Assembly: GCA_015478725.1 (NCBI GenBank)
Contig: JADMIG010000017.1
Coordinates: 1-57,083 of the forward strand
From: Chloroflexota bacterium
Lineage (GTDB): Bacteria > Chloroflexota > Limnocylindria > Limnocylindrales > CSP1-4
Reading direction: 5' to 3'
DNA: 57,083 nucleotides
Shown here: piece after piece, positions 5,398 through 42,050 of the stretch
Layout of the letters: the number at the start of each line of letters is the position of its first letter
How positions within the stretch are numbered: position 1 is the stretch's first letter
Notes under the pieces: generated by a model
Told to the model about the DNA's origin: nothing
Databases searched by the model: none
What the model saw: the letters and a program-made list of their open reading frames with translations, nothing else
Translations under genes and position numbers: made by a program

Positions 5398-5474
5398 CGA
5401 ACTTCGCTCCGAGCGGGAGCGGTCATCGTTGCGTCCTGACCTTCACCTGCGAAGAGCCGGCGCGCTCCGGCCGC

Positions 5475-6506
5475 CTAGCCATGACGACATAATGCCTGCG
5501 CTGCGGCTTCGATAGCCACGGCACTCGGCACGATCTCGTCCTCGAGCGGTGGGCTATACGGGATAAGCAGGTGCCCCGGAAGGCTGATTGCCTGTGGGGC
5601 GGCCCGCCACACGACACCACCGGAGGCCAGCAGCGAGATGATCGTCGCGCCCCATCCGCCGGCATGAACCTGCTCCTCGACGACGAGCAGTCGGCCGGTG
5701 CGGTCGACCGAATGGCGAATCGTGGGCAGGTCGAGTGGCCTGATCCAGCGCAGGTCGATGACCTCGGCCTCGACGCCTGCGGCGGCGAGCTCGTCGGCGG
5801 CCATAAGCGCTCGCTCGACCATCAGCAATGTGGCAACGATCGTCACGTCACCACCCTCGCGGAGGACCGCCGCTCGACCAATCTCAGCGACCGAGCCCCG
5901 CTCCACCGGACCCTTTCTGGCATAGAGCCCCTTGTGCTCGTGAAAGATGACCGGGTTGTCGTCCCGGATCGCGGCCCGGAGCAGGCTGTAGGCAGAGCCG
6001 GGTGTCGCGGCGGTCACCACCCGCAGGCCCGGCAAACCCATGAACCAGCTCTCGCCCGTCGCCGAGTGTTGCGTGCCGAAGCGACCCGTCGCGCCGGAGA
6101 CTGAGCGGATGGTCACCGGGACAGAGCATTTCCCGCCGCTCATGAAGCGGTACTTGGGGAGCTCGTTGACGATGGCATCGGCGGCGGTCGGCAGGAAGTC
6201 GCTGAACATGAATTCGACGACTGGACGGAGCCCCATGAGGCTCATCCCGAGGGCCACCCCGGTGAACCCGTTCTCGCAGATCGGAGTGTTGATCACGCGC
6301 TCGGGTCCGAACCGCTCGAAGAGCCCGACATTCGTCTTGAACACGCCGCCGTCGCTCGCGACGTCTTCCCCCATCAGGACGACGGCCGCATTCGTCGCCA
6401 TCTCGTCGAGCAGAGCCGCGTTGATTGCCTCGCGGTAGGTGAGCTCCACCGTCTCGGCTACCCGGACGTCCGCATCGCGCGCGCTTGGGTCAATCTGCGT
6501 AGACAT
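5475..6506 (-). CDS. 2-oxo acid dehydrogenase E1 component, beta subunit (pyruvate/acetoin type)
   Basis: A 343-residue transketolase-like beta subunit of a heterotetrameric E1, which pairs with the alpha subunit to decarboxylate a 2-oxo acid on thiamine diphosphate and pass the acyl group to lipoyl-E2. Typical elements: LTYREAINAALLDEM, VVLMGEDVASDGGVFK, the strand SLMGLRPVVEFMFSDF and the C-terminal VIDLRWIRPLD and RTGRLLVVEEQ. The ATG at 6506 overlaps the end of the E1 alpha gene by 17 bases; an upstream start would add a nonsense N-terminus. Residues do not distinguish pyruvate from acetoin or sugar-derived 2-oxo acids. The E2 parts are at 20.3-21.3 kb; no E3 is seen. Confidence 0.9.
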   Translation of the reverse strand: MSTQIDPSARDADVRVAETVELTYREAINAALLDEMATNAAVVLMGEDVASDGGVFKTNVGLFERFGPERVINTPICENGFTGVALGMSLMGLRPVVEFMFSDFLPTAADAIVNELPKYRFMSGGKCSVPVTIRSVSGATGRFGTQHSATGESWFMGLPGLRVVTAATPGSAYSLLRAAIRDDNPVIFHEHKGLYARKGPVERGSVAEIGRAAVLREGGDVTIVATLLMVERALMAADELAAAGVEAEVIDLRWIRPLDLPTIRHSVDRTGRLLVVEEQVHAGGWGATIISLLASGGVVWRAAPQAISLPGHLLIPYSPPLEDEIVPSAVAIEAAAQALCRHG

Positions 6507-7458
6507 AACGCGCGGTCTCCTCCAGGTTCGGATACGGGGCCGCCAAGGCCCGCTCAGCAGCAGCGTCGATGTCCCGCTGGACCTCGGTGGATAGGGCCGC
6601 CTGCGCATCGCTTGTGAGGGTCCCCTCGGCCGCCAGCCGCCTGCCGAGGATAGCGATCGGATCTCGCGCCTGCCAGTGCTCGAGCTCGCCGTCGGGCCGG
6701 TACTTGGCCGGGTCCGACCGGCTGTGCCCGCGGTACCGGTAGGTCTTCATCTCGAGGAGCGAGGGCCCGTCGCCGGCCCGGGCCCGCTCGACCGCAACGG
6801 CGACCGCCGCGCGGACGACCTCCACGTCCTGCCCGTCCACGATCGTCCCCGGGATCCCGAACGGGTCCGCCCGACGGGCAAGGTCGTCGATGGGAGTGGT
6901 TGCCCGAAGGGGCGTGTACTCCCCGTACAGATTGTTCTCGATGATGAATACAACCGGGGCAGACCAGACGGCGGCCATGTTCAGTGCTTCGTGGAAGGTC
7001 CCAATGTTGGTGGCCCCGTCGCCGAAGAACGTGAGCGCGACGCGAGCTTGGCCTTGGAGCTTGAAGGCCATCGCGGCCCCGACCGCGATCGGCAGGCCGG
7101 CCGCCACAATCGCGTTCGAACCGATGTTGCCCATGGAGAAGTCAACGAGGTGCATTGAGCCCCCGACGCCGCCCGAGCCGCCAGTCCGGCGGCCCATGAG
7201 CTCGGCGAAGGCCGTCTCCGGGGCCATCCCACGCGCGAGCGCCTGGCCGTGGCCGCGATAGGTGTTCGTGAGGACGTCGTCTGGGCGCATCGCGGCGATG
7301 GCGCCGACCGAGACTGCCTCCTGGCCCTGACAGAGGTGGGTGGTGCCCTGGATATGGCCACCCATGAACAATTCCTGGACCTTCTCCTCGAAGCGCCGGA
7401 TCTCGAGCATCCGGCGATACCAGGCGGGTCGTGGATCGGCGTCCGTCTGAGCGCTCAT
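6490..7458 (-). CDS. 2-oxo acid dehydrogenase E1 component, alpha subunit (pyruvate/acetoin type)
   Basis: A 322-residue thiamine-diphosphate-binding alpha subunit. The cofactor motif runs from GDG (146-148) to ENN (174-176). The phosphorylation-loop region RYRGHSRSDPAKYR is also present, as is HLCQGQEAVSVG at the N-terminus. The gene starts with ATG at 7458 and overlaps the end of the CaiB/BaiF gene (ATGA junction), and the next gene, E1 beta, overlaps it in turn, so the two subunits are probably translationally coupled. Sitting inside a sugar-acid catabolic operon, it may act on a pathway-specific 2-oxo acid rather than pyruvate; this is inference. It is paralogous to the subunit at 41034-42050. 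Confidence 0.92.
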   Translation of the reverse strand: MSAQTDADPRPAWYRRMLEIRRFEEKVQELFMGGHIQGTTHLCQGQEAVSVGAIAAMRPDDVLTNTYRGHGQALARGMAPETAFAELMGRRTGGSGGVGGSMHLVDFSMGNIGSNAIVAAGLPIAVGAAMAFKLQGQARVALTFFGDGATNIGTFHEALNMAAVWSAPVVFIIENNLYGEYTPLRATTPIDDLARRADPFGIPGTIVDGQDVEVVRAAVAVAVERARAGDGPSLLEMKTYRYRGHSRSDPAKYRPDGELEHWQARDPIAILGRRLAAEGTLTSDAQAALSTEVQRDIDAAAERALAAPYPNLEETARYVYAD

Positions 7459-9235: not shown

Positions 9236-9260
9236 CAGGACGAGGTGCTCCCTTCAGGGT

Positions 9261-10394: not shown

Positions 10395-10403
10395 CGTGTC
10401 CCC

Positions 10404-11506: not shown

Positions 11507-11508
11507 GG

Positions 11509-13376: not shown

Positions 13377-14254
13377 CAGCCGATCTTCCCAGGATGGAGC
13401 GGCTGACCGGTTCTTCCGAGCGCGATCCGCCAGAGCGCCCCGCCGAACGACGGGTCCGCGCTATCGGCCGGAACGCCGGCGTCGGTCATGTACAGGTTCT
13501 CGCCGTCGAAGGCGCAGTTGGTTGCCGCGTTTCCGCACGCGATGAATTCATCCACGGTGCCGTCGGGCTGCAGGACGTGGATGCCCGCGGCCGTGATGTC
13601 GGTCACGTACAAGCGCCCATCCGCGCCGATCTTCATACCGTCCAGGATCGGGTTCGCGCCGGGCAGCTTACCGAGATCCTCGATGTCCGTCGAACCTGTG
13701 CGCAGCCGTCGAACATGCCCAGTGTAGGACTCGTCCCAGACAATTGACCCATCCCTCTCGATCGCCAGTCCATTGGGGAAGACCGGGGCCGGGAAGGCGA
13801 TGATGACATGGCCAGTCCCGTCCGGCTCGAGCGCGAAGATGTAGCTTGGATCGGGTGCTGCCGGGTTGTAGGTCCCGGGATCCGTGAAATACAGGCGCCC
13901 GTCCGCCCCGAACACGAGGTCGTTGGGTCCGTTGAGCTTGATGCCCTCGATCTCCGTGATCAGGACCTCAGCCGATCCCCCCTCATGATCGACCCGCTGA
14001 ATCGACGGAACACTCATCTCGGCCGCCCGCCACGGCCCCACCGTCCCGCCGTTCTGGCAGACGTAGAGCGCGCCATCGGAGCCAAGGACGCTCGAGTTCG
14101 GCGCCCCCGCTGTGTATGCGTAGCGCCCGACTCCGTCGGGACTCCAGACCGTCAGCTGGCTACGGTAGCTCTCGACGAAGACGACCCGACCATCTGGCAG
14201 AACCGTCGGCCCCTCCGGCCAGCCGAGTCCGCTGGCGACCTGCTCGATGTGCAT
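13376..14254 (-). CDS. SMP-30/gluconolactonase family protein
   Basis: A 292-residue six-bladed beta-propeller lactonase of the SMP-30/gluconolaconase/LRE family, which hydrolyses sugar lactones to acids with a divalent metal. The metal ligands can be placed at Glu in WPEGPTVL, Asn in GPNDLVF and Asp in LYVTDIT, with the repeated blade motif (DGRLYFTDPG, DGRLYVTD). It lies directly after the ABC permease genes and overlaps the next SDR. With an SDR on one side and MR-family dehydratases in the operon it would supply the aldonic acid for dehydration. No secretion signal is seen, so it acts in the cytoplasm. Confidence 0.88.
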   Translation of the reverse strand: MHIEQVASGLGWPEGPTVLPDGRVVFVESYRSQLTVWSPDGVGRYAYTAGAPNSSVLGSDGALYVCQNGGTVGPWRAAEMSVPSIQRVDHEGGSAEVLITEIEGIKLNGPNDLVFGADGRLYFTDPGTYNPAAPDPSYIFALEPDGTGHVIIAFPAPVFPNGLAIERDGSIVWDESYTGHVRRLRTGSTDIEDLGKLPGANPILDGMKIGADGRLYVTDITAAGIHVLQPDGTVDEFIACGNAATNCAFDGENLYMTDAGVPADSADPSFGGALWRIALGRTGQPLHPGKIG

Positions 14255-14287
14255 CGTGGCCTCCCGAAATGACGGTGCGATTGGTCG

Positions 14288-15121
14288 TCAGCGGATCGCG
14301 CCGGACGTGATCCCGCGCACGATGTAGCGCTGGATGAACAGGGAGAAAATGAAGATCGGAATGATGGTGACGATCCCGACGGCGGCAGCGATATTCCAGT
14401 CGATCGGGCGGTCGGCACTGACCAACGTCGCTGCTCCGAGCGTCACGGTCTGGAGATCACGCGAGTTAATGACAAAGAGCGCGACGAGGAACTCGTTCCA
14501 CACGAAGATGGCACCGAAAATCGCCGCGACGATCAATCCTGGGCGCACGATTGGCAGCATCACCCGCAGGAGTAGTTGGGCTCGGCCGCAACCGTCCACT
14601 CGAGCCGCGTCGTCGATCTCCATCGGCACTTCGTCAAAGAAGCCAATCATGATCCAGACGACGAGCGGGAGGGTGAAGGCCACATACGGCAGCACCAGTC
14701 CCACATAGGAGTCCTCCTGGTGGAGAAACGTGACCATCAGGAAGATGGGGATGGCGACCGCGACTCCAGGCATGAACCGGAAGCTGAGGATCGTGGACGC
14801 CCATGTGTCTCTTCCTCGGAAGCGAAGCCGGGAGAACGCATAGGCGGCCGGCGTTCCGACGATCAGGCCAACGAGGGTCGCGATGCCCACCACGATGATC
14901 GAGTTCCCGACGAACGCGAGCATCCCCTGGGTCCCGATCACTTCGGTGTAGTTCCTGACGATCGTCGACCAGTCGAAGCTCAGGGTCGGTGGCACGTCTG
15001 AGGCGATCTCGATCCGTGTCTTCAATGACAGGATGAGGAGGTACGCGAATGGGCCGAGGGCGACGATCGCGATGAGCGCGAGCACAACGTACGCAGCCAC
15101 CCGCCCGACGACGTGTCTCAT
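14288..15121 (-). CDS. Carbohydrate ABC transporter permease (MalG-like)
   Basis: A 277-residue inner-membrane permease with six predicted hydrophobic segments, starting YVVLALIAIVALGPF. The cytoplasmic EAA loop (MEIDDAARVDGCGRAQLL...LPIVRPG) that docks the ATPase is present. The C-terminal FIQRYIVRGITSGAIR is typical of MalG/UgpE-type permeases. The ATG at 15121 overlaps the stop of the partner permease. It belongs with the permease at 15118-16023 and the binding protein at 16095-17627. No ATPase gene is present in the operon, so a shared MsmK/UgpC-like ATPase encoded elsewhere probably powers it. Confidence 0.92.
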   Translation of the reverse strand: MRHVVGRVAAYVVLALIAIVALGPFAYLLILSLKTRIEIASDVPPTLSFDWSTIVRNYTEVIGTQGMLAFVGNSIIVVGIATLVGLIVGTPAAYAFSRLRFRGRDTWASTILSFRFMPGVAVAIPIFLMVTFLHQEDSYVGLVLPYVAFTLPLVVWIMIGFFDEVPMEIDDAARVDGCGRAQLLLRVMLPIVRPGLIVAAIFGAIFVWNEFLVALFVINSRDLQTVTLGAATLVSADRPIDWNIAAAVGIVTIIPIFIFSLFIQRYIVRGITSGAIR

Positions 15122-16023
15122 GCGCCCTCCTGCCCGCGCAAGCGGACGAAACGGAGGGTCACCGTGGAGAGGACGATCAGGACGACGACCATCACGTAGG
15201 CGATCGCCGCCGAATACCCGTACTGCTGAAAGTCGAATCCGGTCTGGTAGGTCAGAAAGCTCAACGTCGTTGTTGTGCGAGCTGGTCCTCCATAGGTCAG
15301 GCCATAGACGAGGTCGAACGAGCGAAAAGCGTCGATGGCCCGAAAGATGGCCGCAAACGCAATCGCCGGCGCGAGGAGCGGCAGCGTGATGTACCGGAAG
15401 GTCGCCCACCGGCCAGCGCCGTCAACTTGGACGGCCTCAAACACATGCTCGGGTAGCGCCTGCAGCCGGGCGTACACGACGAGGAATACAAATGGGGTCC
15501 ATTGCCAGGTGTCCGCGATCACCAGCGTGCGGATGGCCCAATCCGTCGAACCCAACCAGTTGATGGGCGGCAGACCGAGCCGTCCGATGGCCCAATTGAC
15601 GATGCCCCAGTCGGGGTTGAGCATCGCCCTCCACATGACTCCCACGACGATGGGGGTCAAGAGCATCGGCAGGATGAGCGCTCCGCGTACCAGCCAGGAG
15701 CCCCGCAGGCGCTGGTTGAAGAAGAGGGCGAGTCCAACGCCAAGAACAACTTGCAGGACGACAGCCGACCCCACCATCACTGCGGTGGTCCGTGCCGCGT
15801 TCCAGAAAAACGGATCATTGAAGACCGCGACGTAGTTGTCGAAACCGACCCAGTGGCCCGAGTCTTTCGCAATGCCCAGGTCGGTGAACGAAAGCCGCAG
15901 ACTGTAGAGCAGCGGAAAAACCGAGAATGCGAACAGGTAGATGAGGCATGGACCGAGCAGGAGCAGGACGTCGCGCGTGTTACGCGAGACCAAACGCGAC
16001 GTCCTGCCCCCCCTTTCGGTCAC
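15118..16023 (-). CDS. Carbohydrate ABC transporter permease (MalF/UgpA-like)
   Basis: A 301-residue inner-membrane permease. It opens with a charged N-tail, then TM1 (VLLLLGPCLIYLFAFSVFPL) and the periplasmic SLRLSFTDLGIA segment; the EAA loop reads EAVQVDGAGRWATFRYITLPLLAP, and LTYGGPARTTTTLSFLTYQ is typical of this group. The start is taken as GTG at 16023 because upstream sequence in frame is not protein-like and overlaps the binding-protein gene in a wrong frame; a GTG 27 bases earlier is possible. It is cotranscribed with the partner permease (four-base overlap). Together they import a sugar or sugar-acid oligomer. Confidence 0.9.
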   Translation of the reverse strand: MTERGGRTSRLVSRNTRDVLLLLGPCLIYLFAFSVFPLLYSLRLSFTDLGIAKDSGHWVGFDNYVAVFNDPFFWNAARTTAVMVGSAVVLQVVLGVGLALFFNQRLRGSWLVRGALILPMLLTPIVVGVMWRAMLNPDWGIVNWAIGRLGLPPINWLGSTDWAIRTLVIADTWQWTPFVFLVVYARLQALPEHVFEAVQVDGAGRWATFRYITLPLLAPAIAFAAIFRAIDAFRSFDLVYGLTYGGPARTTTTLSFLTYQTGFDFQQYGYSAAIAYVMVVVLIVLSTVTLRFVRLRGQEGA

Positions 16024-16094
16024 AGGAAGACGACCTACCCTGCCGGTCACCTGAACAGTCGCAGGCGCTCTCGGGCGGCCGTAGTTTTCGTCGA

Positions 16095-17627
16095 TCAGAC
16101 GAGAACGCCGGCCTTGCGGAGCGAGGCTTCCCAGAGCGTCTGGACGTTGGCACAGGCCGTCTTGGCGTCCTGCGCACCGATGAGCGCCTTGTTGAATTCG
16201 ACGTTCATCGACGCGTTCATCCCGAAGAAGTCGGCGAGGATAGACGTCTCGATGGTGTGGGCCCCGGCGTTCGCCGCGCCGGAGATCGGCAGATAGGGCA
16301 GCTTGGCGATCAGGGTCGGATCGTTGTAGGTCGAATTCCGGCTCGGGTCGATCTGGTACTGCAACTCCTCGTAGTTGTTGAACGACTTGCTCGTCATCCA
16401 TGTGAGCGCCCGCCAGGCGGCTGCCTTCTTCGTCGGGTCGGCGTTCGCTGGAATCCCGACCCCCCAGCCACCGAGGATCGCCTGCGACGTCTGACCTGGC
16501 GCGGCTGGGACCGGGGTGACGCCGGTCATCGTGGCGACCTTGGAAGTGGCCGGGTTGTACACCGGCCCGGCGATCGTGGACCAGAAGACCATCTGGGCGA
16601 TCTTGCCGGAGGAGAACGCATCCACGTTCTCCGGGAAGCCATACGAAGTCACGTTCGTCGGCGCATACGGCAGCAAGTCGATGAGCATCTGGAGCGCGCC
16701 GACCGCCTCGGGACTGTTGAGGTTGGGCTTGAAGTCCTTGGTCGCCGGGCTGCCGGTCAGGAGGACGCCGCCCGTGGTGAGGAACGTCGTGTACCAGGAG
16801 ACGGTGGCCAAGGAGAAGTCGTTGGCGCCGATGAAACTGCAGCCTGCCACTTGGCCCGGCTTGTTCAGGGCCTTCGCCGCCGCCTTGAAATCGTCCCACG
16901 TCTTGGCCGGCTGAAGACCCGCCGCGTCGAAGAGATCCTTCCGGTAGAAGTAGACGACCGAGCCGCTGTGCAAACCAGGAATGCCGTAGAGATTGGTCCC
17001 TTTGCCGAGCGTCTTGGTCGTCGGATCGAAGATTCCGACGTTGTTGAGGTTCGCCGTCGCGAAGTCCGAGAAGTCCCAGTCTGGCGGCGTCTCCGCGGGA
17101 TCATCCTTGTATTTGTTGAGCTGCTCGAACGAGCCGTTCGACAGGTAGCCTGTGGTGAGGAAACCCAGATAGTTGACGAGTTCGAACGCAGACTGCGATG
17201 CAGCGAGCTCCTGACCCGTCTTTGGGATGAGAGCGTTGAGGGCGGGCGCGCTGATCGTGAGGTCAATGCCCGTTTCGGTCTTGAGTTGGGCGACTTTGTC
17301 TCCGAGGGCCCGGTGGTCGTTCTCGCTACCGGTCATCAAGATGCTTACCTTGGTACCGGCATACTTCATCGGGTCGAAGGTCCCGCCAGCCGACGATGCC
17401 GCGGGGCTCGATCCGGCGGCCGATGGCCCGCTCGAGCTTGCGGCGGCCGATGGGGCCGCAGTCGCGGCCGAGCCGCAGGCAGCCAGGATTGCGCTGATCG
17501 CGCCGCCGGAGAGGCCAAGGATGGTCGCCCGTCGGACAAATTCACGCCGACTGATCCGGCCGGCGAGCAGACCCTGGACAGCCGCCGAGACGGCGCCGTC
17601 GCCCCTCGGCGTGGCTTCCTGGTTCAC
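16095..17627 (-). CDS. Extracellular solute-binding protein of a carbohydrate ABC transporter (lipoprotein)
   Basis: A 510-residue family 1 binding protein. The N-terminus has a twin-arginine motif (SRREFVRR at 26-33), a hydrophobic stretch and a lipobox ending at Cys51 (ILAAC), then an Ala/Ser-rich linker to about residue 80, so it is probably exported folded by Tat and lipid-anchored. The binding domain includes TVSWYTTFL, VYFYRKDLFDAAG, WDDFKAAAKALNKPG and ILGGWGVGIPA. The start is GTG at 17627, preceded by GAGGAGG. It is the first gene of the long operon that runs to mct; its promoter overlaps a candidate LacI site (17683-17725). The ligand is unknown. Confidence 0.93.
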   Translation of the reverse strand: MNQEATPRGDGAVSAAVQGLLAGRISRREFVRRATILGLSGGAISAILAACGSAATAAPSAAASSSGPSAAGSSPAASSAGGTFDPMKYAGTKVSILMTGSENDHRALGDKVAQLKTETGIDLTISAPALNALIPKTGQELAASQSAFELVNYLGFLTTGYLSNGSFEQLNKYKDDPAETPPDWDFSDFATANLNNVGIFDPTTKTLGKGTNLYGIPGLHSGSVVYFYRKDLFDAAGLQPAKTWDDFKAAAKALNKPGQVAGCSFIGANDFSLATVSWYTTFLTTGGVLLTGSPATKDFKPNLNSPEAVGALQMLIDLLPYAPTNVTSYGFPENVDAFSSGKIAQMVFWSTIAGPVYNPATSKVATMTGVTPVPAAPGQTSQAILGGWGVGIPANADPTKKAAAWRALTWMTSKSFNNYEELQYQIDPSRNSTYNDPTLIAKLPYLPISGAANAGAHTIETSILADFFGMNASMNVEFNKALIGAQDAKTACANVQTLWEASLRKAGVLV

Positions 17628-17682
17628 GGCGTTCCTCCTCTACGACGAGCCCTGCAAGACCGCATGGTCCTGCTCGCGCCGC

Positions 17683-17725
17683 ACCGTACTAGACGGGACC
17701 AACGATTGTCAACAATCCTTTGTTC
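17683..17725 (-). promoter_or_regulatory. Promoter and candidate LacI operator of the locus A main operon
   Basis: On the minus strand there is a perfect -35 TTGACA (forward 17707-17712), an 18-base spacer and a -10 TACGGT (17683-17688). The -35 runs straight into AATCGTT. Just upstream, forward 17712-17725 (GAACAAAGGATTGT on the minus strand) nearly repeats the GAACAAACGATTGT site at 20.2 kb. The site overlaps the last codons of the MaoC gene. Shared sequence with the two promoters at 20.2-20.3 kb suggests one LacI-type repressor for all three. The motif is seen directly; the regulator is inferred. Confidence 0.6.
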
Positions 17726-18185
17726 CGACTCCACGGCAGGCCACCCGGCGTTCTTCCTCGATGGCGGCCACTTCCTCACCGCGCTGGTTTCGACCGACGA
17801 TTCGGCGACGGACGACACCTCCTCGACCATCCGCCAAGGGCACACCAGAGAGGATGACCGACTCCGCCCGCAGGGTGTCGCCGGCAAAGACGGGGCCCGC
17901 GAGGCGGATTGAGATCCAGCCCCAGGACCGGCCGAGGACCGCATCCGCAGGCGGCCACTCGATCGGTTCCGCTAAGCCCGCCACCACGGCGACGGTGAGG
18001 GCACCGAGGACGACCGGTTGGCCATAAGCGGTCGTCCGAGCGTAGTCGGCATTGGCGTGCAGGTCGCTCGCGTTGTTCGAGACCATCGCGAGCCATACGT
18101 GCTCGTCGGAGCCGATCGTCCGACCCCCAGGGTGCTCGATCGTGAGACCGGGCTGAGCGTCCTCGAACGACCATCTCGAGATCAT
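17709..18185 (-). CDS. MaoC-like hot-dog hydratase/dehydratase
   Basis: A 158-residue single hot-dog-domain protein of the MaoC/FkbR2 type, which adds or removes water across an enoyl-CoA double bond. FEDAQPGLTIEHPGGRTIGSD, the segment NNASDLHANADYA and LAGPVFAGDTLRAESVILSG are family features, with Asp and His in DLHANADYA at the catalytic position. It resembles the protein at 22575-23105. The ATG at 18185 is used; a TTG at 18209 with a better-placed GAGG is possible and would add eight residues. It follows an MR-family dehydratase in a short minus-strand operon. In this context it may act on a hydroxyacyl-CoA from a sugar acid. Confidence 0.85.
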   Translation of the reverse strand: MISRWSFEDAQPGLTIEHPGGRTIGSDEHVWLAMVSNNASDLHANADYARTTAYGQPVVLGALTVAVVAGLAEPIEWPPADAVLGRSWGWISIRLAGPVFAGDTLRAESVILSGVPLADGRGGVVRRRIVGRNQRGEEVAAIEEERRVACRGVGTKDC

Positions 18186-18212
18186 GGCCCGAGCGTTCGG
18201 CACGGCCAACGA

Positions 18213-19352
18213 TTACAGGCCTCGGAGGATCCCATCGGGATCATCATGAGGTTGAGAGCGGATCCACTCCGGGTCGACGAGGTGGCCGAACCCGGGTGCC
18301 TCGGGTAACGCTGCCATCCGCCCGCCTACCTCGATGGTCGGCTGGGGCAACGGGTCGTCCATCGGGTGGACCCCCGTGAACGGGATCCCCCACTCGATCG
18401 GCGCGTCGGCGTAACCGAGGCCGGCAAGGACCTGGCTGTGGACGTGGGGGAACATGTGCGGGGCGAATGCCAGCCCCGCCGCGAGGACCTGGTCGATGAT
18501 CCGTCGGCCTCGGGTGATCCCGCCCATGCAGGTGAAATCGACCCGGACCACGTCGACGGCCGCCTCGGTGATCAGCGCCTCCGGGTAGTAGATGCCTCCC
18601 TGCTCATCACCCGTGGCGATCGGCGTCGCGGTGAGCTCACGCAGACGGCGCAGCTGCCCGGCATCTCCCGGTGGGAAGACATCCTCGAACCAACCCAGGT
18701 TGACGTCGGCGATCGAGTTGACGAACGCGGCTGCGACTCCAACATCGTCATACACCCATGCGGCGTCGAGGCCGAGCCAGGCATCCGGGGCTGCGGCGCG
18801 AGCGGCCCGAAGTCGGGCGGCCGTCCGCTCGGGAGTGGCCGCGATCGGCGCCTTGAACCGCCGCCAGCCCGACGCGTAGAGCTCGGCAGTCTGGGCGCCC
18901 GTCTCCTCCGGCCCCATCGTGGCTGGGGGATAGCCGATGATCGCCGTTACCGGCATCGGTCGATTCGCGCCACCGAGCAGCCCGGCGATCGAGAGGTCAG
19001 CCGCCTTCGCAGCCAAGTCCCATGAGGCGAGGTCGACGATCGACAGGGCGCGAAGCCCGATCCCGGCCGCATGGGACGCGAGACTGCGTCGCCAGGCGAC
19101 CGTGAACGTCCTCTCCTGCTCGCCGACGGCTGTCCCGACGTACATGCGCGCGATCGTCTTGCGGATCTGCTCGGCAACGGCACCGTCCCGGGTCAGCGTG
19201 TAGGCGTAGCCGCGCAGCCCAGCTGTGGAGGTCACTCGAACGAGGGCGAATTCGCGATAGTTCATGATCCACTCGCCAAAGACGACCGGCGCGGGGAGTT
19301 GCGCCTGAATCGTCATCACCTCGACGGCATCGATCGTGTCGGTTCCGCTCAT
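18213..19352 (-). CDS. Mandelate racemase/muconate lactonizing family protein (acid-sugar dehydratase-like)
   Basis: A 379-residue enolase-superfamily enzyme, clearly paralogous to the one at 9261-10394. Metal ligands are Asp196 (GLDAAW), Glu223 (WFEDV) and the acidic pair in TGDEQGG; the His dyad region reads APHMFPHVHS. The second-strand KxK is FKAP, again with one Lys (Lys167) followed by Pro. The C-terminus shares EAPGFGHLVDPEW with its paralogue. It overlaps the upstream SDR by four bases and precedes MaoC. It would dehydrate or epimerise a sugar acid. Two close paralogues in one regulon suggest two related substrates or two steps on the same chain. Confidence 0.88.
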   Translation of the reverse strand: MSGTDTIDAVEVMTIQAQLPAPVVFGEWIMNYREFALVRVTSTAGLRGYAYTLTRDGAVAEQIRKTIARMYVGTAVGEQERTFTVAWRRSLASHAAGIGLRALSIVDLASWDLAAKAADLSIAGLLGGANRPMPVTAIIGYPPATMGPEETGAQTAELYASGWRRFKAPIAATPERTAARLRAARAAAPDAWLGLDAAWVYDDVGVAAAFVNSIADVNLGWFEDVFPPGDAGQLRRLRELTATPIATGDEQGGIYYPEALITEAAVDVVRVDFTCMGGITRGRRIIDQVLAAGLAFAPHMFPHVHSQVLAGLGYADAPIEWGIPFTGVHPMDDPLPQPTIEVGGRMAALPEAPGFGHLVDPEWIRSQPHDDPDGILRGL

Positions 19353-20161
19353 CGGTCGCCACCAGCACTCGAGGCCCAGGCCCCCTGGGCCATGAAGCCG
19401 CCGTCGACGCTGAGGTACTCGCCAGTGATGAAGCTTGCCCGGTCGCCGGCGAGGAAGAGGACAGCCTCGGCGATATCCTCAGGGCGACCGATGCGTCCAA
19501 GGGGGTGGACCGATCCGTAGCGCTTCACATTGGCCTCGATGTCCCCGCCTTCAGCCCGAGCCAGATCGCGGACCAACTCGGTATCGATGGTGCCCGGGCA
19601 GATGGCCACGACGCGGATGCCCTCCGCAGCGTAATCGAGGGCCATGTTCCGTGTCAGCGAGAGAATGCCGCCTTTGCTGGCCGCGTAGGCGGGCACGCCG
19701 GGCATCGACTGAAGGCCCTGCACGCTCGACATGTTGACCACAACGCCGCCCCGCCCGGTTTCGCGGATCCGCGGGAGAGCGTATTTGGACATGAGGAACA
19801 CCCCCTTGAGGTTAACCCCGATGATCCGGTCCCAGACCTCCTCGGGCATGTCCTCAAGCCGGAAGTACCAATGAGTCGGCTGGATCCCCGCGTTGTTGAC
19901 GAGGATGTCGAGCCGGCCGAGATGCGCGACCGTCTGGCTGACAATCCGCTCGGCATCCGTCGCCGAGGCGACGTCTCCGACCACCGCGACGACGCGGGCG
20001 CCCGTCGCCCCGAGCTCGGCGGCCAAGGCCTCGGCTGCGGGCCCATCGACATCTGCGATCGCTACCCGAGCCCCGGCTGCGGCGAACGCCCAAACGATCC
20101 CGCGCCCGATGCCGAGCGCGCCGCCGGTGACGAGCACCGCTCTGCCATCGAAGTCGCCCAT
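19349..20161 (-). CDS. Short-chain dehydrogenase/reductase (SDR)
   Basis: A 270-residue classical SDR. TGGALGIG is the coenzyme loop, IADVDGP suggests NAD, and NNAG is intact. The active-site Ser lies in NMSSVQGLQ, the catalytic Tyr/Lys in YAASK, and the C-terminal VDGGFMAQGAWAS closes the substrate pocket. It is the first gene of the short minus-strand operon SDR-MR-MaoC. Its promoter (20204-20233) contains a candidate LacI operator. The order suggests oxidation of a sugar before or after dehydration by the MR-family enzyme; the substrate is not identifiable. Confidence 0.92.
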   Translation of the reverse strand: MGDFDGRAVLVTGGALGIGRGIVWAFAAAGARVAIADVDGPAAEALAAELGATGARVVAVVGDVASATDAERIVSQTVAHLGRLDILVNNAGIQPTHWYFRLEDMPEEVWDRIIGVNLKGVFLMSKYALPRIRETGRGGVVVNMSSVQGLQSMPGVPAYAASKGGILSLTRNMALDYAAEGIRVVAICPGTIDTELVRDLARAEGGDIEANVKRYGSVHPLGRIGRPEDIAEAVLFLAGDRASFITGEYLSVDGGFMAQGAWASSAGGDR

Positions 20162-20203
20162 GTCATCCGCCCTCGGTTAGATCTCCTCGACCTGACTGTA
20201 CCG

Positions 20204-20233
20204 AACGTACCTGATTGAACAAACGATTGTCAA
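20204..20233 (-). promoter_or_regulatory. Promoter of the SDR-MR-MaoC operon with a LacI-type operator in its spacer
   Basis: On the minus strand: -35 TTGACA (forward 20228-20233), 18-base spacer, -10 TACGTT (forward 20204-20209). The operator core ACAAACGATTGT occupies forward 20219-20230, overlapping the -35 and spacer, within a looser dyad ATTGA...TCAAT. Its exact reverse complement lies at 20279-20290 in the divergent promoter, 60 bases away. This position is classic for repression by steric block. Confidence 0.65.
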
Positions 20234-20269
20234 TCCGGACATGAACGGCTTCACCGCGACACCGGAGGG

Positions 20270-20298
20270 TTGCGGGGCACAATCGTTTGTTGTACGTT
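20270..20298 (+). promoter_or_regulatory. Promoter of the lipoyl/E2/CitE operon with a LacI-type operator in its spacer
   Basis: On the plus strand: -35 TTGCGG (20270-20275), 17-base spacer, -10 TACGTT (20293-20298), the same -10 as the divergent promoter. The operator core ACAATCGTTTGT (20279-20290) fills the spacer and is the reverse complement of the site at 20219-20230. The leader to the start at 20346 is about 40 bases and carries AGGAGG just before the ATG. Confidence 0.6.
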
Positions 20299-20345
20299 TC
20301 GCTGCGACTTCGGCCGGGTAGGGCGGCCGTCCCAGGAGGTGGTCG

Positions 20346-20588
20346 ATGCGCGTCCCGATCGAGATGCCCCAGCTTGGCTACGACATGTCCACCGGGCGGA
20401 TCGCGTCATGGCTGAAGGCGGTCGGAGACAAGGTTCAGCGGGGTGAGCCGATCGCCGAGATCGAGACGGAGAAGTCGACTGTCGAGATGGAGGCCCTCGC
20501 CAGCGGCATCCTCGTAGAGATCATCCACGACGCTGGCAGCGAGGTCCCCGTCGGGGAGGTCATCGGCCAGCTCGAGACGGAGGAATGA
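20346..20588 (+). CDS. Stand-alone lipoyl domain protein (E2 N-terminal domain)
   Basis: An 80-residue lipoyl domain, normally the N-terminus of E2 acyltransferases. IEMPQLGYDMSTGRIASWL and the lipoylation loop ETEKSTVEMEA with Lys43 are canonical, followed by VPVGEVIGQLE. The protein ends after the domain with no hinge, no E3-binding domain and no catalytic domain; the catalytic domain is the next gene, overlapping by ATGA. It would carry the acyl group from E1 (probably the pair at 5.5-7.5 kb, same regulon) to the E2 catalytic protein. The ATG follows an AGGAGG. Splitting an E2 this way is unusual. Confidence 0.92.
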   Translation: MRVPIEMPQLGYDMSTGRIASWLKAVGDKVQRGEPIAEIETEKSTVEMEALASGILVEIIHDAGSEVPVGEVIGQLETEE

Positions 20589-21283
20589 GCGCTGGTTGGC
20601 ACGCCGTCGCCCTGAGTCCGATGCGCGCGGCGATCGCTCGCCGGATGGTCCACAGCAAGCAGGTCGCACCGCACTTCTACGTGAGCGTCGAGGTCGACAT
20701 GACCGCCGTCCTGGAGTCTGCGGCTCGGCGCAACGCGGGACACGCCCCCGACGAGCGGGTGACCGTCACGGCCTATCTGCTCCGAGCGTTGGCGATGAGC
20801 CTGGCCAGCCATCGGGCGTTCAATGCGATCTGGGCAGATGACGAGCTCCGGCTTGTCGACGCCATCAACATCGGCGTCGCCATCGCCCTCGACGACGGCC
20901 TCATTGCGCCAGCCCTCCTCGATTGCACGGATCGATCCGTGGCAGCCCTCGCCATTGGTCTCCGCGATCTGACCCAGCGGGCGCGCTCTGGACGACTTCG
21001 GCCGGCGGAGATCAATGACGCCACGTTCACCCTCAGCAATCTCGGGATGTACCCGATCTCGGGCTTCACCGCGATCATCACGCCGCCGCAGGTCGCGATC
21101 CTGGCGACCGCTCGGATCGAGCCGCGAGCGGTCGTCATCGGCGGCGCGGTCGGGATCCGGCCGATGCTAACCGCCACTCTCTCGGCCGATCACCGAGCGC
21201 TGGACGGCGCTTCCGCGGCAGCCTTCCTCGCCGATCTCCGGGCCGCCCTCGAAGCCGCCGCGGAATGGCAGGATCCGGCGTGA
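20585..21283 (+). CDS. 2-oxo acid dehydrogenase acyltransferase (E2) catalytic domain, stand-alone
   Basis: A 232-residue protein equal to the catalytic domain of dihydrolipoamide acyltransferases, transferring an acyl group from lipoamide to CoA. LSPMRAAIARRM is the usual domain start, TLSNLGMYPISGFTAIITPP and AILATARIEP are core strands, and the active-site motif is DHRALDG with His203. No lipoyl or peripheral subunit-binding domain is fused, and the protein starts right at the domain edge. It is translationally coupled to the lipoyl gene (ATGA) and to the CitE-like gene (GTGA). How it would bind E1 and E3 without a subunit-binding domain is unclear; core assembly as trimers remains possible. 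Confidence 0.9.
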   Translation: MSAGWHAVALSPMRAAIARRMVHSKQVAPHFYVSVEVDMTAVLESAARRNAGHAPDERVTVTAYLLRALAMSLASHRAFNAIWADDELRLVDAINIGVAIALDDGLIAPALLDCTDRSVAALAIGLRDLTQRARSGRLRPAEINDATFTLSNLGMYPISGFTAIITPPQVAILATARIEPRAVVIGGAVGIRPMLTATLSADHRALDGASAAAFLADLRAALEAAAEWQDPA

Positions 21284-22578
21284 CGAGCGATCGGCGGTCG
21301 CTCGAGGACCACATCAGGGAGGCCACTCGGCGTCAGGAAGCGGGCTCCTCCGCGCTGACTGGCCGTCGGGTGGCCCTCCCTCTCCGCTTTTGGCGCCAGG
21401 CGGCGCATTTCACGACGCCGGCAGGCGACGAGGCGATGGGCCGCAAGGCGATCGAGGGCGGCACCGAGCCGATGGCGCGGATCCTCGAGCGGATGGGATT
21501 GACCGGCGGCAACCTGGCCGAACGCCTGGAGACCGACCGGGGAGAAGTCGAGCGACTTCTGGCGACACCGCGGCGGGCGCCGCTTGTCATGCTCGACGGG
21601 GAAGACGCCCAGGCCCTCCGCAACGACGTCGTGGCTCAGGGACTCGCCAATGCGGCGAACCTCGTCGCCGGGGCAGATTGGACGGGCGATGGCCCGGCGA
21701 CACTCCGCTTCTTCCGACCGCCCGGCTTTGCCCTCGGCACGACAGTGCACGATCTGTATAGCGTCATGTGGCAGATTGCCGACGCCTCGCCACCGGGACG
21801 ATACGCGCTGGACGGAATCGTCTTTCCCAAGCTCGAGCATCCAGAAGAAGTCGGCCTGCTGTACGACATCCTCGACCAGGGGGAGGCAGCTCTCGGCCTG
21901 GCGCAGGGAACGATCCGTGTTGCCTTTCTGATCGAGTCCGGGTGGGCCGTCGCCCGGTTGGCAGAGATCGCCGTCCGTGCCGCGTCGCGCGCCTGCGCGC
22001 TTATCTTCGGGCTGGCCGACTACTCGGCTGACCTCGGCCTGCCCGCGATCTCGACCGACCACGCCCTGGCAAGCTGGGCGCGGGGGGAGATCGTGGCCGT
22101 CGCCGGCGCCTTGGGAGTGCCGGCGATAGACGGAATGACGCTCGACTACCCGGTCAGCGACCCGGCGCTCGATGCCGCCGCCAACCGCGAACGATTTCTC
22201 GTCCGGATGCGGCTTGTCTATGACGACGCGATCCAGGCCCGCGATCTCGGCATGACCGGCAAGTGGGTCGGCCACCCGGCCCAATTGTTCGCCGTCCTGC
22301 TGGCGTTCGATGCCGCCTTCGCACCGGCAACCCTCGAGGTCGAGGCGGCCAAACTTGACGCCTACCGGGCAGCGGTCAACGAAGGCCGCGGCGCAACTAT
22401 CATCGAGGGCATCATGTCTGATCGGGCGACCGATCGCCACGCCCGGGTACTCCTGCGCCGCGCTACAGCCCATGGCCGGTTCGCACCCGGCCGGGCCTTC
22501 GAGCTCGGTGTAATCGACCGCGATGAGCTGGCCGAACTCAAGAGCGCGTCGATCCTTGGGGGCACGTCTGGATCATGA
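21280..22578 (+). CDS. HpcH/HpaI aldolase/citrate lyase (CitE-like) family protein
   Basis: A 432-residue TIM-barrel lyase of the CitE/malyl-CoA lyase superfamily, which cleaves or forms C-C bonds of 3-hydroxyacyl-CoA thioesters with Mg2+. Matching elements are LDGEDA (105-110), the Arg-containing RFFRPPG (143-149), PKLEHP (183-188), a metal-binding Glu in LIES (217-220) and Asp in FGLADYSADLG (243-253). It is longer than CitE (about 290) or malyl-CoA lyase (about 350), with an extra N-terminal 100 residues. The GTG at 21280 shares GTGA with the E2 stop and has AGGA upstream. Likely reaction: cleavage of a beta-hydroxyacyl-CoA to acetyl-CoA plus an aldehyde or keto acid; the substrate is unknown. 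Confidence 0.8.
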   Translation: MTSDRRSLEDHIREATRRQEAGSSALTGRRVALPLRFWRQAAHFTTPAGDEAMGRKAIEGGTEPMARILERMGLTGGNLAERLETDRGEVERLLATPRRAPLVMLDGEDAQALRNDVVAQGLANAANLVAGADWTGDGPATLRFFRPPGFALGTTVHDLYSVMWQIADASPPGRYALDGIVFPKLEHPEEVGLLYDILDQGEAALGLAQGTIRVAFLIESGWAVARLAEIAVRAASRACALIFGLADYSADLGLPAISTDHALASWARGEIVAVAGALGVPAIDGMTLDYPVSDPALDAAANRERFLVRMRLVYDDAIQARDLGMTGKWVGHPAQLFAVLLAFDAAFAPATLEVEAAKLDAYRAAVNEGRGATIIEGIMSDRATDRHARVLLRRATAHGRFAPGRAFELGVIDRDELAELKSASILGGTSGS

Positions 22579-23105
22579 GAATCGACTGGGAGGGGCGCTT
22601 CCTCGAGGACTTCACCGTCGGTGACGTCTACCGTCACGTCAACGGGCGGACGATCAGCGAGACCGATAACACGTGGTTCACCCTGCTGACGAGCAATACC
22701 CACCAGATCCACGTGAATGCCGATTACGCCGCGCGAACCGAGTTCGGGCGCCCCCTTGTCGTGAGCACCCTGACCTTGGCGATCGTCACGGGACTGAGCG
22801 TGGCTGACGTGAGCCAGAATGCCGTGGCCAATCTGGGTTGGGACAACATCAAGCTGACGTCGCCGGTGTTCGCGGGCGACACCCTGTATGCCTCGAGCGA
22901 AGTCCTCGAAGTGCGGCCTTCTCGCTCTCGACCGGGTCAGGGGATCGTCCGAGTCCGGACCCGTGGCTTCAACCAGCGCAATGAGACGGTCATCGAATTC
23001 GAGCGATCTGTCCTCGTCTATGCGCGCGCGGCTCGGCCTGAGAGACGGGTCGAGACCGACCGCGATGTCGCATCGCCCGAGCCGCCGAACCCTCTCGACC
23101 CGTAG
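22575..23105 (+). CDS. MaoC-like hydratase (mesaconyl/itaconyl-CoA hydratase-like)
   Basis: A 176-residue hot-dog hydratase. FLEDFTVGDVYRHVNGRTI, then NTHQIHVNADYA with the catalytic acid and His, and LTSPVFAGDTLYASSEVLE match the MaoC group that includes mesaconyl-CoA and itaconyl-CoA hydratases. The C-terminal 25 residues are Arg/Pro-rich and not conserved. The start ATG overlaps the lyase stop (ATGA). A MaoC hydratase next to a CitE-like lyase is the arrangement of C5-dicarboxylate degradation (itaconate, mesaconate to citramalyl-CoA to acetyl-CoA and pyruvate), and Mct in the same regulon points the same way. A sugar-derived hydroxyacyl-CoA is the alternative. Confidence 0.85.
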   Translation: MRIDWEGRFLEDFTVGDVYRHVNGRTISETDNTWFTLLTSNTHQIHVNADYAARTEFGRPLVVSTLTLAIVTGLSVADVSQNAVANLGWDNIKLTSPVFAGDTLYASSEVLEVRPSRSRPGQGIVRVRTRGFNQRNETVIEFERSVLVYARAARPERRVETDRDVASPEPPNPLDP

Positions 23106-23256
23106 TCAGGTTATCCGCACCGGGTCGCCGGAATTCACCTTCTGGCGGATGCGACTGCCAGTTCCGGTCGACCAGACCACAGCGTCCAGCAACGGCGGCC
23201 CGGATGTCCGGGTCGCATCGCGCACCCAGAAACCGGGCGGATGGAGGAGGCTCTCG

Positions 23257-24003
23257 ATGGGCTATGCGACGAGCCGTCTGGCCGTAGTAACCGGTGCGGC
23301 GAGCGGGATTGGGCTCGCGACCGCCAAGCGCCTGCTCTCGGAAGGCGCCTCGGTCCTTGCGGTGGACATCAGCGAGGCTGGGTTGGGTCCGATTGCCGAC
23401 CTCGGCGCGACGCCGGTCGTTGCCGACCTGGGCGAGGAGACCGGCCGGGCGCGGGTTATAGAGGCGGGCCGCGGAGCCCAATATCTTGTGAATGCGGCCG
23501 GAATCCTTTTCGTGAAGCCCATCCTTGAGGTGACCACGGAGGATTGGCGGCGGATCTTCCGGATCAACGCCGAGTCGATGTTCTTCCTGATTCAGGGCAT
23601 CGGACCCACCATGCCCGCCGGCGGGGCGATCGTGAACCTGTCATCGGCTTCCGCGAAGCTCGCAACCACAGTTGACCTCGCCCATTACGCAGCCACAAAG
23701 GCTGCCGTCCTCTCGATTACGCGCTCATTCGCATACGCCCTCGCGCCGCATAACGTGCGCGTCAACGCGATCTGTCCCGGGATCATCGACACCCCGATGC
23801 AGGAGAAGGTCCTCGAGGGGATCTCGGCGCTCCGTCGGATCACACCCGAGGAACTCGACGCGGCCCGTGTCAAGACCGTCCCGCTGGGGCGAACAGGCTC
23901 GGCCGACGAGTGCGCAGGGCTGATCTGTTTCCTCCTGTCTGATGCGGCTTCGTACATGACCGGTCAGGCGGTAAATCTGACCGGCGGCTGGGTGATGTGG
24001 TGA
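23257..24003 (+). CDS. Short-chain dehydrogenase/reductase (SDR)
   Basis: A 248-residue classical SDR. TGAASGIG is the coenzyme loop and AVDIS points to NAD; VNAAG replaces NNAG. Ser is in NLSSASAKL, the catalytic pair in YAATK, and the end is TGQAVNLTGGWVMW. The start ATG at 23257 follows GGAGGAGG with a six-base gap; earlier in-frame starts overlap the MaoC gene. It is the last recognised gene of the plus-strand operon of locus A, 151 bases after MaoC. Its short central region (no lid insertion) is like hexitol and 2-deoxy-gluconate type dehydrogenases, but the substrate is not certain. Confidence 0.9.
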   Translation: MGYATSRLAVVTGAASGIGLATAKRLLSEGASVLAVDISEAGLGPIADLGATPVVADLGEETGRARVIEAGRGAQYLVNAAGILFVKPILEVTTEDWRRIFRINAESMFFLIQGIGPTMPAGGAIVNLSSASAKLATTVDLAHYAATKAAVLSITRSFAYALAPHNVRVNAICPGIIDTPMQEKVLEGISALRRITPEELDAARVKTVPLGRTGSADECAGLICFLLSDAASYMTGQAVNLTGGWVMW

Positions 24004-40068: not shown

Positions 40069-41046
40069 CTACGCCGCAACGAGACGGCTCGCCGCCGCGA
40101 CGATCCGGGCTGCGTCGGGAATCGCCATGGATTCCAGATTCACGGCATACGGCAGCGGCATCTCAGCCCCACCGATCCGCACGACGGGGGCATCGAGATG
40201 ATCGAAGGCATACTCCCCGATCGATGCGGCCACCTCGCCGGCGAACCCACCCGTCAATGGGGCCTCCTGAATCACCAGACATCGTCCCGTCTTCTGCACG
40301 GAGGTCGCAACCGTGTCGTAGTCGAACGGACGGAGGGTCCGAAGGTCGATGACCTCGGCGTCGACCCCATCGGCGGCAAGAGCCTCGGCGGCTGCAAGCG
40401 CTTGCTTGACCATGGCGGACCAAGCGACAAGCGTGATCTGACTTCCTACCCGGCGCACCACAGCCCGACCGAATGGATCACCCGAAGAGGCAGCGTCGAG
40501 GTCGGCGATATCGCCGAAGAGGGCCTTGTGTGCGATGACGATGCAGGGGTCATCATGTCTCGTTGCCGCGAGAAGCAGGTGGTAGGCGTCCGGCACCGTC
40601 CCGGGCAGCGCGACCGTCAGGCCGGGTATCTGAGCGAACACAGCCTCGAGGGATTGCGAGTGCTGCGCGGCGTTCCCCTTCCCGCCTCCTCCCTGGGTCA
40701 GGATCGTCATCGGCGTCTGGAACTGCCCTCCGGTCATGAACCGCGTCTTCGCAGTCTGGTTGATGATCTGGTCCATCCCGACGAGGGTGAAGTCGACGTA
40801 CATGACCTCGACGATCGGGCGCAAGCCGCACATCGCGGCACCGAGAGCAGCCCCGATGAACGCCGCCTCGGAAATCGGCGTGTCCCGCACGCGCTCGGCG
40901 CCGAATTCGTCCTGAAGGCCGGCGGTGATACGGAACACCCCGCCGTAGTGGCCGATGTCCTCGCCCATGAGGAACGTCCTGGGATCGTCGCCCAGCGCCT
41001 GCTTGAGCGCGAGCCGCATGGCCGAGACGTAGTTCACGCGTGCCAT
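40069..41046 (-). CDS. 2-oxo acid dehydrogenase E1 component, beta subunit (locus B)
   Basis: A 325-residue E1 beta subunit. NYVSAMRLALKQALGDD, FLMGEDIGHYGGVFRITAGL, EVMYVDFTLVGMDQI and AEVIDLRTLRPFDYDTV are typical. The ATG at 41046 overlaps the E1 alpha gene by 13 bases; the longer frame upstream is antisense noise. It differs clearly from the locus A paralogue (5475-6506), so the two E1 pairs are not a recent duplication. No E2 or E3 gene is near; it may share the split E2 of locus A. Confidence 0.9.
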   Translation of the reverse strand: MARVNYVSAMRLALKQALGDDPRTFLMGEDIGHYGGVFRITAGLQDEFGAERVRDTPISEAAFIGAALGAAMCGLRPIVEVMYVDFTLVGMDQIINQTAKTRFMTGGQFQTPMTILTQGGGGKGNAAQHSQSLEAVFAQIPGLTVALPGTVPDAYHLLLAATRHDDPCIVIAHKALFGDIADLDAASSGDPFGRAVVRRVGSQITLVAWSAMVKQALAAAEALAADGVDAEVIDLRTLRPFDYDTVATSVQKTGRCLVIQEAPLTGGFAGEVAASIGEYAFDHLDAPVVRIGGAEMPLPYAVNLESMAIPDAARIVAAASRLVAA

Positions 41047-42050
41047 GCGTCGCCTCCTGTGGATCGAGTCCCTCCGGTCACCGCAACGGGCACGAGCGCG
41101 ACCGCGGGTTCCCACTCCGGCCGCGGAGCCCGCAGGGCGGCGGCCTCCGCCTCGTCCAACTCTTCTGCCACGTCTCGCTCGACGCGGCCGAGCGTCTCTT
41201 CGGTTGCACCCTCCCCGAGCAGACGACGCCGTGCGAGTTCGATCGGGTCGCGGGAGCGCCAGGCTTCGATGTCTTCCGCTGTACGGATCGTTTCGGGGTC
41301 ACCGTGATAGTGCCCTGAGAACCGATAGGTCTCGAATTCGATGAACGCCGGACCCGCGCCCGCTCGGAGTCGGTGGATCGCCGCCGTGGCGACCTGCCGC
41401 ACCGCCTCGACATCCATCCCGTCGGCACGCTCACTGTCGATACCGAGACCGCGAGCGCGCTCGGCGATCGTCTCGGTCCGGATCATGTCCCGCGCCGGCG
41501 TCATCTCGGAGAACTGGTTGTTCTCGCAGGCGAACAGCACGGGCAGATGCCAGACGGCCGCGAGGTTGAATGCCTCCATCACGGCGCCCTGGTTCACCGC
41601 GCCATCGCCGAAGAACGCCACTGCGACGCCGTTGGAACCCGTGAGATGGCGGGCGAGGGCGGCACCGACGGCGATCGGCACGCCTGCGCCCACGATGGCA
41701 TTCGAACCGAGGTTTCCGACCGACGCGTCGGCAAGGTGAAGCGACCCGCCCAGACCGCCGCAACAGCCGGTGGCTCGCCCGCACATCTCCGCGAGGATCG
41801 CGCCGGCCGGGGTGCCCATGGCGAGCGCGTGATGGTGGCCGCGGTAGGTAGCCGTGATGACGTCCTCATCCCCGAGCGTGGAGCAGACCCCCACCGCGAC
41901 CGCCTCTTGGCCGATGCCGAGGTGAATCGAGCCGCGAATCTCACCTCGGTCGTGAAGACTCCTGCATCGCTCGAGGAACCCGCGGATGAGGGCCATGCGG
42001 GCATAGCGTCCGCGCGGCTCCCCGAGAGCCGCGCGGCGTCCGACAGTCAT
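41034..42050 (-). CDS. 2-oxo acid dehydrogenase E1 component, alpha subunit (locus B)
   Basis: A 338-residue E1 alpha subunit. SIHLGIGQEAVAVGV, TYRGHHHALAMGTP, GGLGGSLHLAD, and the thiamine diphosphate motif from GDG (148-150) to ENN (176-178) are present, with FSGHYHGDPETIR at the position of the phosphorylation loop. AEMCGRATGCCGGLGG carries a Cys pair not seen in the locus A paralogue. It overlaps the LacI stop (ATGA) and the E1 beta start. Pyruvate, acetoin or another 2-oxo acid could be the substrate. Confidence 0.92.
   Translation of the reverse strand: MTVGRRAALGEPRGRYARMALIRGFLERCRSLHDRGEIRGSIHLGIGQEAVAVGVCSTLGDEDVITATYRGHHHALAMGTPAGAILAEMCGRATGCCGGLGGSLHLADASVGNLGSNAIVGAGVPIAVGAALARHLTGSNGVAVAFFGDGAVNQGAVMEAFNLAAVWHLPVLFACENNQFSEMTPARDMIRTETIAERARGLGIDSERADGMDVEAVRQVATAAIHRLRAGAGPAFIEFETYRFSGHYHGDPETIRTAEDIEAWRSRDPIELARRRLLGEGATEETLGRVERDVAEELDEAEAAALRAPRPEWEPAVALVPVAVTGGTRSTGGDAWHA

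Follow-up and report, generated by a model that had tools for sequence, protein, structure and literature searches.

An E2 acyltransferase divided between two genes

The window, by which we mean the whole 57,083-nucleotide stretch of DNA analysed, corresponds to contig C17 in a draft Chloroflexota genome of 3.45 Mb and 151 contigs. On its forward strand two overlapping ORFs encode what in a normal E2 acyltransferase is a single chain: a free-standing lipoyl carrier protein of 80 aa (20346..20588; PF00364 (Biotin_lipoyl), 66.7 bits, profile positions 3–72 of 73) and an E2 catalytic domain of 232 aa that lacks the peripheral subunit-binding domain, PSBD (20585..21283; PF00198 (2-oxoacid_dh), 223.4 bits, positions 5–229 of 232). 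The two ORFs share the four bases ATGA, GGAGG is located just 5′ of the E2 start, and a purine-rich stretch lies 5′ of both starts. The 80-aa protein carries a putative lipoylation site, the lipoyl-lysine motif EIETEKSTV, and the active-site motif of the 232-aa protein, DHRALDG, is of the DHRxxDG type. The Pfam profile search detected no E3_binding (PSBD) match in either protein, and neither a PSBD nor a linker is located between the two. The ORFs and domain matches therefore agree with an earlier note, made from the sequence alone, which had described separate, overlapping lipoyl (80 residues) and catalytic (232 residues) genes, the absence of the PSBD and linkers of a normal E2, and the lack of an E3 gene in the window, where we likewise find no PF02852 match.

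The AlphaFold2 model of the 232-aa E2 (pLDDT 94.8, pTM 0.91) aligns over 230 residues with the Listeria E2 domain 3mae_A (Z 32.1, rmsd 1.7). The best NCBIfam match of the lipoyl protein is the acetoin dehydrogenase E2 equivalog NF011457, at 80.6 bits against a cut-off of 307. As judged by fold and motifs, the 232-aa protein would work chemically like an E2, yet the standard-E2 label would fail for the three features tested: the lipoyl domain is absent from the chain, being encoded by a separate ORF here and in 26 other places (see below), the PSBD is missing, and the tail of the window E2 has no hydrophobic C-terminal element.

Occurrence of the split form in the order

The E2 protein was searched against 126 genomes of the order. 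The split family matched at E ≤1.1e-52, and the best match beyond it, at E 1.3e-44, is a fused E2. Other genomes with the same split, which the earlier note had proposed to look for, do exist: with the window included, the family occupies 27 places in 26 of the 126 genomes, and in all 27 a separate lipoyl ORF is located immediately 5′ of the E2. The lipoyl-lysine hairpin motif is kept in 28 of 28 lipoyl sequences scanned, and the split E2s have retained the DHRxxDG motif. The spacing of the two genes varies from –8 to +50 bases and falls in all three frames (18 other pairs measured, the Shinella plasmid discussed below apart). One of the 27 E2 catalytic domains is broken by an in-frame TAG (G115; L077/L129), and one is cut by the contig end (G113).

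This order-wide picture bears on whether the split is real. The ATGA overlap and the clean domain ends had already been taken to argue against a frameshift, and the 27 conserved places with their varying spacing in all three frames rule out a frameshift or assembly error in the window. While nearly all members of the family come from draft metagenome assemblies and G115 does contain an in-frame TAG, the probability that a normal fused gene was disrupted by errors in sequencing or assembly is negligible, as no PSBD sequence is found between the genes and an independent split is present on a closed Shinella plasmid.

The order-wide search also returned several weaker E2 matches whose open frames are short; some are located at contig ends. 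One such locus, L090 (G017:C102:12021-12821), is a short frame with a partial PSBD and an E2 catalytic domain, with the lipoyl match absent in the listed frame; it may be a broken gene or another variant.

Origin of the split E2s and their C-termini

For a wider sample, 80 loci were picked from named genomes by their similarity to the split family, a selection that would miss other, unrelated splits. Thirteen of these loci have a split pair and 65 a fused E2, while two are truncated by contig ends. Apart from one bin of Lysobacterales and two of Acidimicrobiia, the split hosts are Chloroflexota, with Ca. Limnocylindrus and Ca. Aquidulcis among them; the split, PSBD-less pattern is more general than seen from the window alone. 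In the 57-sequence tree, all 23 split E2s fall into a single clade (100/100) nested within fused ones; lipoyl, PSBD and catalytic domains are all present in its four closest fused relatives (L133–L136). As judged by this topology, the sampled clade has a single origin from a fused, PSBD-bearing E2; a normal E2 thus lost its linker and PSBD when it was split. Transfer across phyla is suggested by the Lysobacterales and Acidimicrobiia members.

At the Lysobacterales locus and at the Acidimicrobiia locus L137, two E1 alpha/beta pairs stand ahead of the split pair, and the contig of the Acidimicrobiia locus L132 starts inside the first of two E1 pairs. In L130:3726-7729 and L137:1781-5802, the two E1 pairs that precede the split pair come after a hydantoinase/caprolactamase-beta-like gene, and the second E1beta has GQY in place of the canonical GED motif, which may be a sign of unusual thiamine chemistry.

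The split E2s mostly lack the hydrophobic pair of C-terminal residues, which is present in two of 21 unique split tails as compared to 49 of 66 fused E2s. The 21 unique tails were obtained from 38 split rows, with duplicates, from two collections (counting duplicates, three of 38 have the pair). Rows dropped from this count are L083 and L144, in which the C-terminus is missing, L140 and L201, which are contig-truncated and of unclear fusion state, and L091 and L093 from the window genome itself, left unclassified by the script. Since 17 of the 66 fused E2s also end without the pair, the trait is not specific to split E2s.

Candidate E1 and E3 partners in the window genome

PF00198 is found four times in the window genome: in the split E2 and in copies on C1, C18 and C34. 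The latter three are complete E2s, with lipoyl and PSBD matches in the same gene, each adjoins its own E1, and the PSBD is confined to them. The only E3 above the lipoamide-dehydrogenase cut-off is encoded in the C1 operon. The earlier note had held that a complete E2 elsewhere in the genome, if used by the window E1, would speak against its reading. Complete E2s are indeed present, three times over, but each is located beside its own E1, and the window E1 therefore need not use them.

Of the three E1alpha genes with no adjoining fused E2, two are located in the window and the third is on C4; the three fused E2s could serve such orphan E1s. Both pairs in the window are on the reverse strand. 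Pair 1, the probable partner of the split E2, consists of E1 alpha (6490..7458; TIGR03182, 353.9 bits, under the cut-off of 393.9) and E1 beta (5475..6608, with the true start probably near 6506; NF006667, 299 bits, under the cut-off of 321). The second pair consists of E1 alpha at 41034..42050 (TIGR03182, 318 bits) and E1 beta at 40069..41115 (NF006667, 346.7 bits, above the cut-off of 321). Pair 1 is some 13 kb away from the split pair in the window. Calling orthologs at ≥70% E1alpha identity among the split-bearing genomes of the window family (f1, window included, loci available), we found pair 1 in nine of 11. In two of these, G003 and G004, it is divergent from the split pair and about 200 bases away, with the E1 beta there being 71% identical. 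The exceptions are G106, in whose available loci we found the split pair and no pair-1 ortholog, and G017, which has two split pairs, each adjoining a fused E1alpha-E1beta gene. This distribution points to the E1 pair at 5475–7458 as the most likely partner of the window split pair.

One operon of G017 (L082:2935-8666) is composed of E1a, E1b and lipoyl genes followed by a fused E1 (737 aa), a lipoyl gene and the E2 catalytic domain, and so has two free lipoyl proteins; its first E1beta reads LGCDV where GED is expected.

The split E2 is the only E2 found in Limnocylindrus

The Limnocylindrus sample comprises the 15 pair-bearing genomes of the small-genome family f2 (0.8–1.2 Mb, completeness 60–92%), including the genus g28 (Limnocylindrus/Aquidulcis). 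Four of the 19 f2 genomes have no split E2 match (G108, G114, G117 and G121, as inferred from the handles not listed), and the E1 and PSBD tests cover the other 15. In 15 of 15 there is one PF00198 match above the cut-off, the split E2 (G115 has one additional hit below it). Profile searches of the same 15 genomes detected no PSBD and no E1_dh (alpha/beta E1) above the cut-off, and the Transket_pyr matches give no hint of an alpha/beta E1. An AceE-type E1 (PDH_E1_M) was found in 12 of the 15, the exceptions being G124, G111 and G109; one AceE scores 1267 bits against TIGR00759 (cut-off 860). All 15 have an E3 at E <1e-40, three of them by partial matches, and in the AceE-checked genome the E3 (479 bits) adjoins lipoyl synthase. 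No aceE or lpd was seen near the split genes in the Limnocylindrus loci read. The adjoining genes encode an MFS-like protein, a protein with a weak match to DUF2130 and a peptide ABC transporter; an E1 beside the pair was accordingly rejected, the E1 being the AceE encoded elsewhere.

At 60–92% completeness the absence of a gene from one genome means little; absence from 15 of 15 is hard to explain by gaps. A hidden fused E2 or PSBD was rejected, as none was found in these 15 genomes. In the simplest reading, the Limnocylindrus pyruvate dehydrogenase appears to run on the split E2. As this is the only E2 found there, the main doubt, that another E2 is used, is removed. The words ‘pyruvate’ and ‘lipoyl’ do not occur in the main text of two papers on the genus (PMC13212565, PMC6169038), and our literature search, with subscription papers and preprints outside its scope, found in the texts it returned no description of a split PSBD-less E2 or of a Limnocylindrus pyruvate dehydrogenase.

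A second split on a Shinella plasmid

On a closed Shinella plasmid, a run of genes on one strand leads from E1alpha and E1beta through an 80-aa lipoyl protein, glpD and a class II aldolase to a stand-alone E2 of 225 aa and a sugar ABC transporter; lipA is located close by on the opposite strand. Much like the window, the cluster combines a free 80-aa lipoyl protein with a stand-alone E2, and this E2, too, has no hydrophobic C-terminus; unlike in the window, the two genes, annotated separately in the record, are 2.7 kb apart. A single origin of the Shinella and Chloroflexota splits was rejected (AU p = 0.0085, with the caveat that the Shinella branch is long), which argues for an independent origin of the former. 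Our literature search found no published description of the Shinella cluster.

The Shinella cluster emerged from a plasmid search in which 269 records matched. Nine hits were inspected (H3, H4, H6, H8, H9, H11, H14, H15 and H19), and only one of the nine, H9 from Shinella, has a stand-alone E2. A search with the Shinella E2 returned four records, among them H27, again from Shinella and with an identical E2, and H28, an Arthrobacter plasmid. The latter (L268:2202-4317) encodes a stand-alone 228-aa E2 that adjoins lpdA and is 51% identical to the Shinella split E2.

A proposed untethered 2-oxoacid dehydrogenase

Textbooks see the reason for the existence of 2-oxoacid dehydrogenase complexes in three features: a swinging arm that is tethered, a subunit-binding domain and a large E2 core. 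We consider it likely that the split pair belongs instead to an untethered 2-oxoacid dehydrogenase, with a cut-down E2 devoid of docking domain and linkers, a diffusible lipoyl carrier and, probably, a trimeric state of the E2. The E1, most likely the alpha/beta pair at 5475–7458, would decarboxylate a 2-oxo acid and acylate the lipoyl group of the 80-residue carrier; the acylated carrier would then diffuse to the small E2, probably a trimer, which would pass the acyl group to CoA, and the shared E3 encoded on C1 would reoxidise the carrier. The apparent pyruvate dehydrogenase of Ca. Limnocylindrus would be made up of the same parts, with an E1 of the AceE type. The overall mode would be nearer to the glycine cleavage system, with its mobile lipoyl protein, than to a tethered megacomplex.

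Published studies offer precedents for several of these steps: canonical E2 trimers are joined via a conserved hydrophobic C-terminal 3-10 helix, while actinobacterial E2p is unable to join and thus stays trimeric (PMC10581250); E1 accepts an isolated lipoyl domain as a substrate (PMC6270654); and the E2 domain of OdhA uses lipoyl groups given in trans (PMC10415282). Taken together with the C-terminal loss, the isolated-lipoyl substrate and the OdhA precedent lead us to prefer a model in which the E2 is a trimer and its lipoyl carrier is diffusible.

The earlier note had gone further in holding that some other means of recruiting E1 and E3 is required, a claim that we could not substantiate: among the E1 and E3 proteins scanned we saw only ordinary domains and no replacement for the PSBD, and it is simpler to suppose that there is no stable recruitment and that the lipoyl protein diffuses. 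The main rival to the untethered reading nevertheless is a stable assembly in which the role of the PSBD is taken over by an unrelated adaptor or by surfaces that E1, E3 or the lipoyl protein has newly acquired. Such an arrangement has a counterpart in the PSBD-less eukaryotic E2o, which uses MRPS36 (PMC9974300), and the one clade does pair with alpha/beta, fused and AceE-type E1s, so that partners can change. We nonetheless regard it as unlikely, given that no extra domain is present on the scanned E1 and E3 proteins and that no conserved small neighbour gene was noticed, with the neighbours differing among the f1, Limnocylindrus and Lysobacterales/Acidimicrobiia loci.

It is also conceivable, if rather improbable, that the window E1 works with a fused E2 and that the split pair serves some other reaction, such as the trans-acylation of a lipoyl carrier that some other enzyme has charged. 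The genome does contain three complete E2s, its E1 genes are 13 kb from the split pair, and G106 has a split pair without the pair-1 ortholog; however, every fused E2 adjoins its own E1, the pair-1 orthologs of G003 and G004 are found close to the split pair, and no other E2 was found in Limnocylindrus.

Comparison with known systems sets the untethered arrangement apart from each of them. The fused E2 (lipoyl-PSBD-catalytic), the direct ancestor by the tree, agrees with the split form in its catalytic fold, its active-site motif and its lipoyl domain, while the split form consists of separate proteins, without PSBD or linkers and with the C-terminal trimer-joining element mostly lost. The H-protein of glycine cleavage is a free lipoyl carrier that moves between enzymes; the 80-aa protein, in contrast, is an E2-type lipoyl domain, and its GCV_H match (21.3 bits) is under the cut-off of 22.2 and far below the Biotin_lipoyl score. 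The actinobacterial OdhA/KGD with AceF likewise has an E2 domain without its own lipoyl domain or PSBD, lipoyl groups supplied in trans and no large core (PMC10415282), but in OdhA the E2 forms one chain with E1 and the PSBD is retained by the donor AceF, whereas here the 232-aa ORF is an E2 domain only, with nothing fused to it. Eukaryotic E2o (DLST) is also described as lacking the PSBD (PMC9974300), but its lipoyl domain stays on the chain of a 24-mer with MRPS36 as the dedicated adaptor.

We lean slightly towards the view that untethered 2-oxoacid dehydrogenases have evolved at least twice and that Limnocylindrus, a streamlined freshwater genus, has a whole pyruvate dehydrogenase without a docking domain or a large E2 core. 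If so, a free-living cell could oxidise pyruvate without tethering and megacomplex assembly. A natural family without tethered swinging arm, subunit-binding domain and large core, to which the apparently sole pyruvate dehydrogenase E2 of a lake bacterium belongs, would allow a direct test, with small proteins that can be expressed one by one, of what tethering and channelling are worth. The family also shows how a single acyltransferase can be paired with three E1 architectures.

Operon context and possible substrate

Downstream of the split pair, on the same strand, are a CitE-like C-C lyase of the HpcH/HpaI type (21265..22578; PF03328, 61.9 bits), a RipB-like MaoC-type enoyl-CoA hydratase (22575..23105; PF01575, 71.9 bits; NF038241, 201 bits, under the cut-off of 340) and, at the operon end, an ORF called by eye as a short-chain dehydrogenase (SDR), with its start inferred (23257..24003). 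The CitE-like gene directly follows the split pair in G062 as well, and is about 1.5 kb downstream of it in G061. The divergent operon encodes an SDR, enolase-superfamily enzymes, MaoC, further SDRs, a CoA-transferase and the E1 pair, along with ABC sugar-transporter genes and an SMP-30-like lactonase that were called by eye. Overall, the divergent cluster at 4357–24003 has LacI, E1, CaiB, glyoxalase, enolase-superfamily, SDR, SMP-30, ABC and MaoC genes on one side and lipoyl, E2, CitE, MaoC and SDR genes on the other. This gene content suggests sugar-acid catabolism via CoA thioesters, and would fit a route by which oxidative decarboxylation of a 2-keto-3-deoxy acid yields a 3-hydroxyacyl-CoA, which is then cleaved. 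Parts of the cluster are conserved in G085 and G062.
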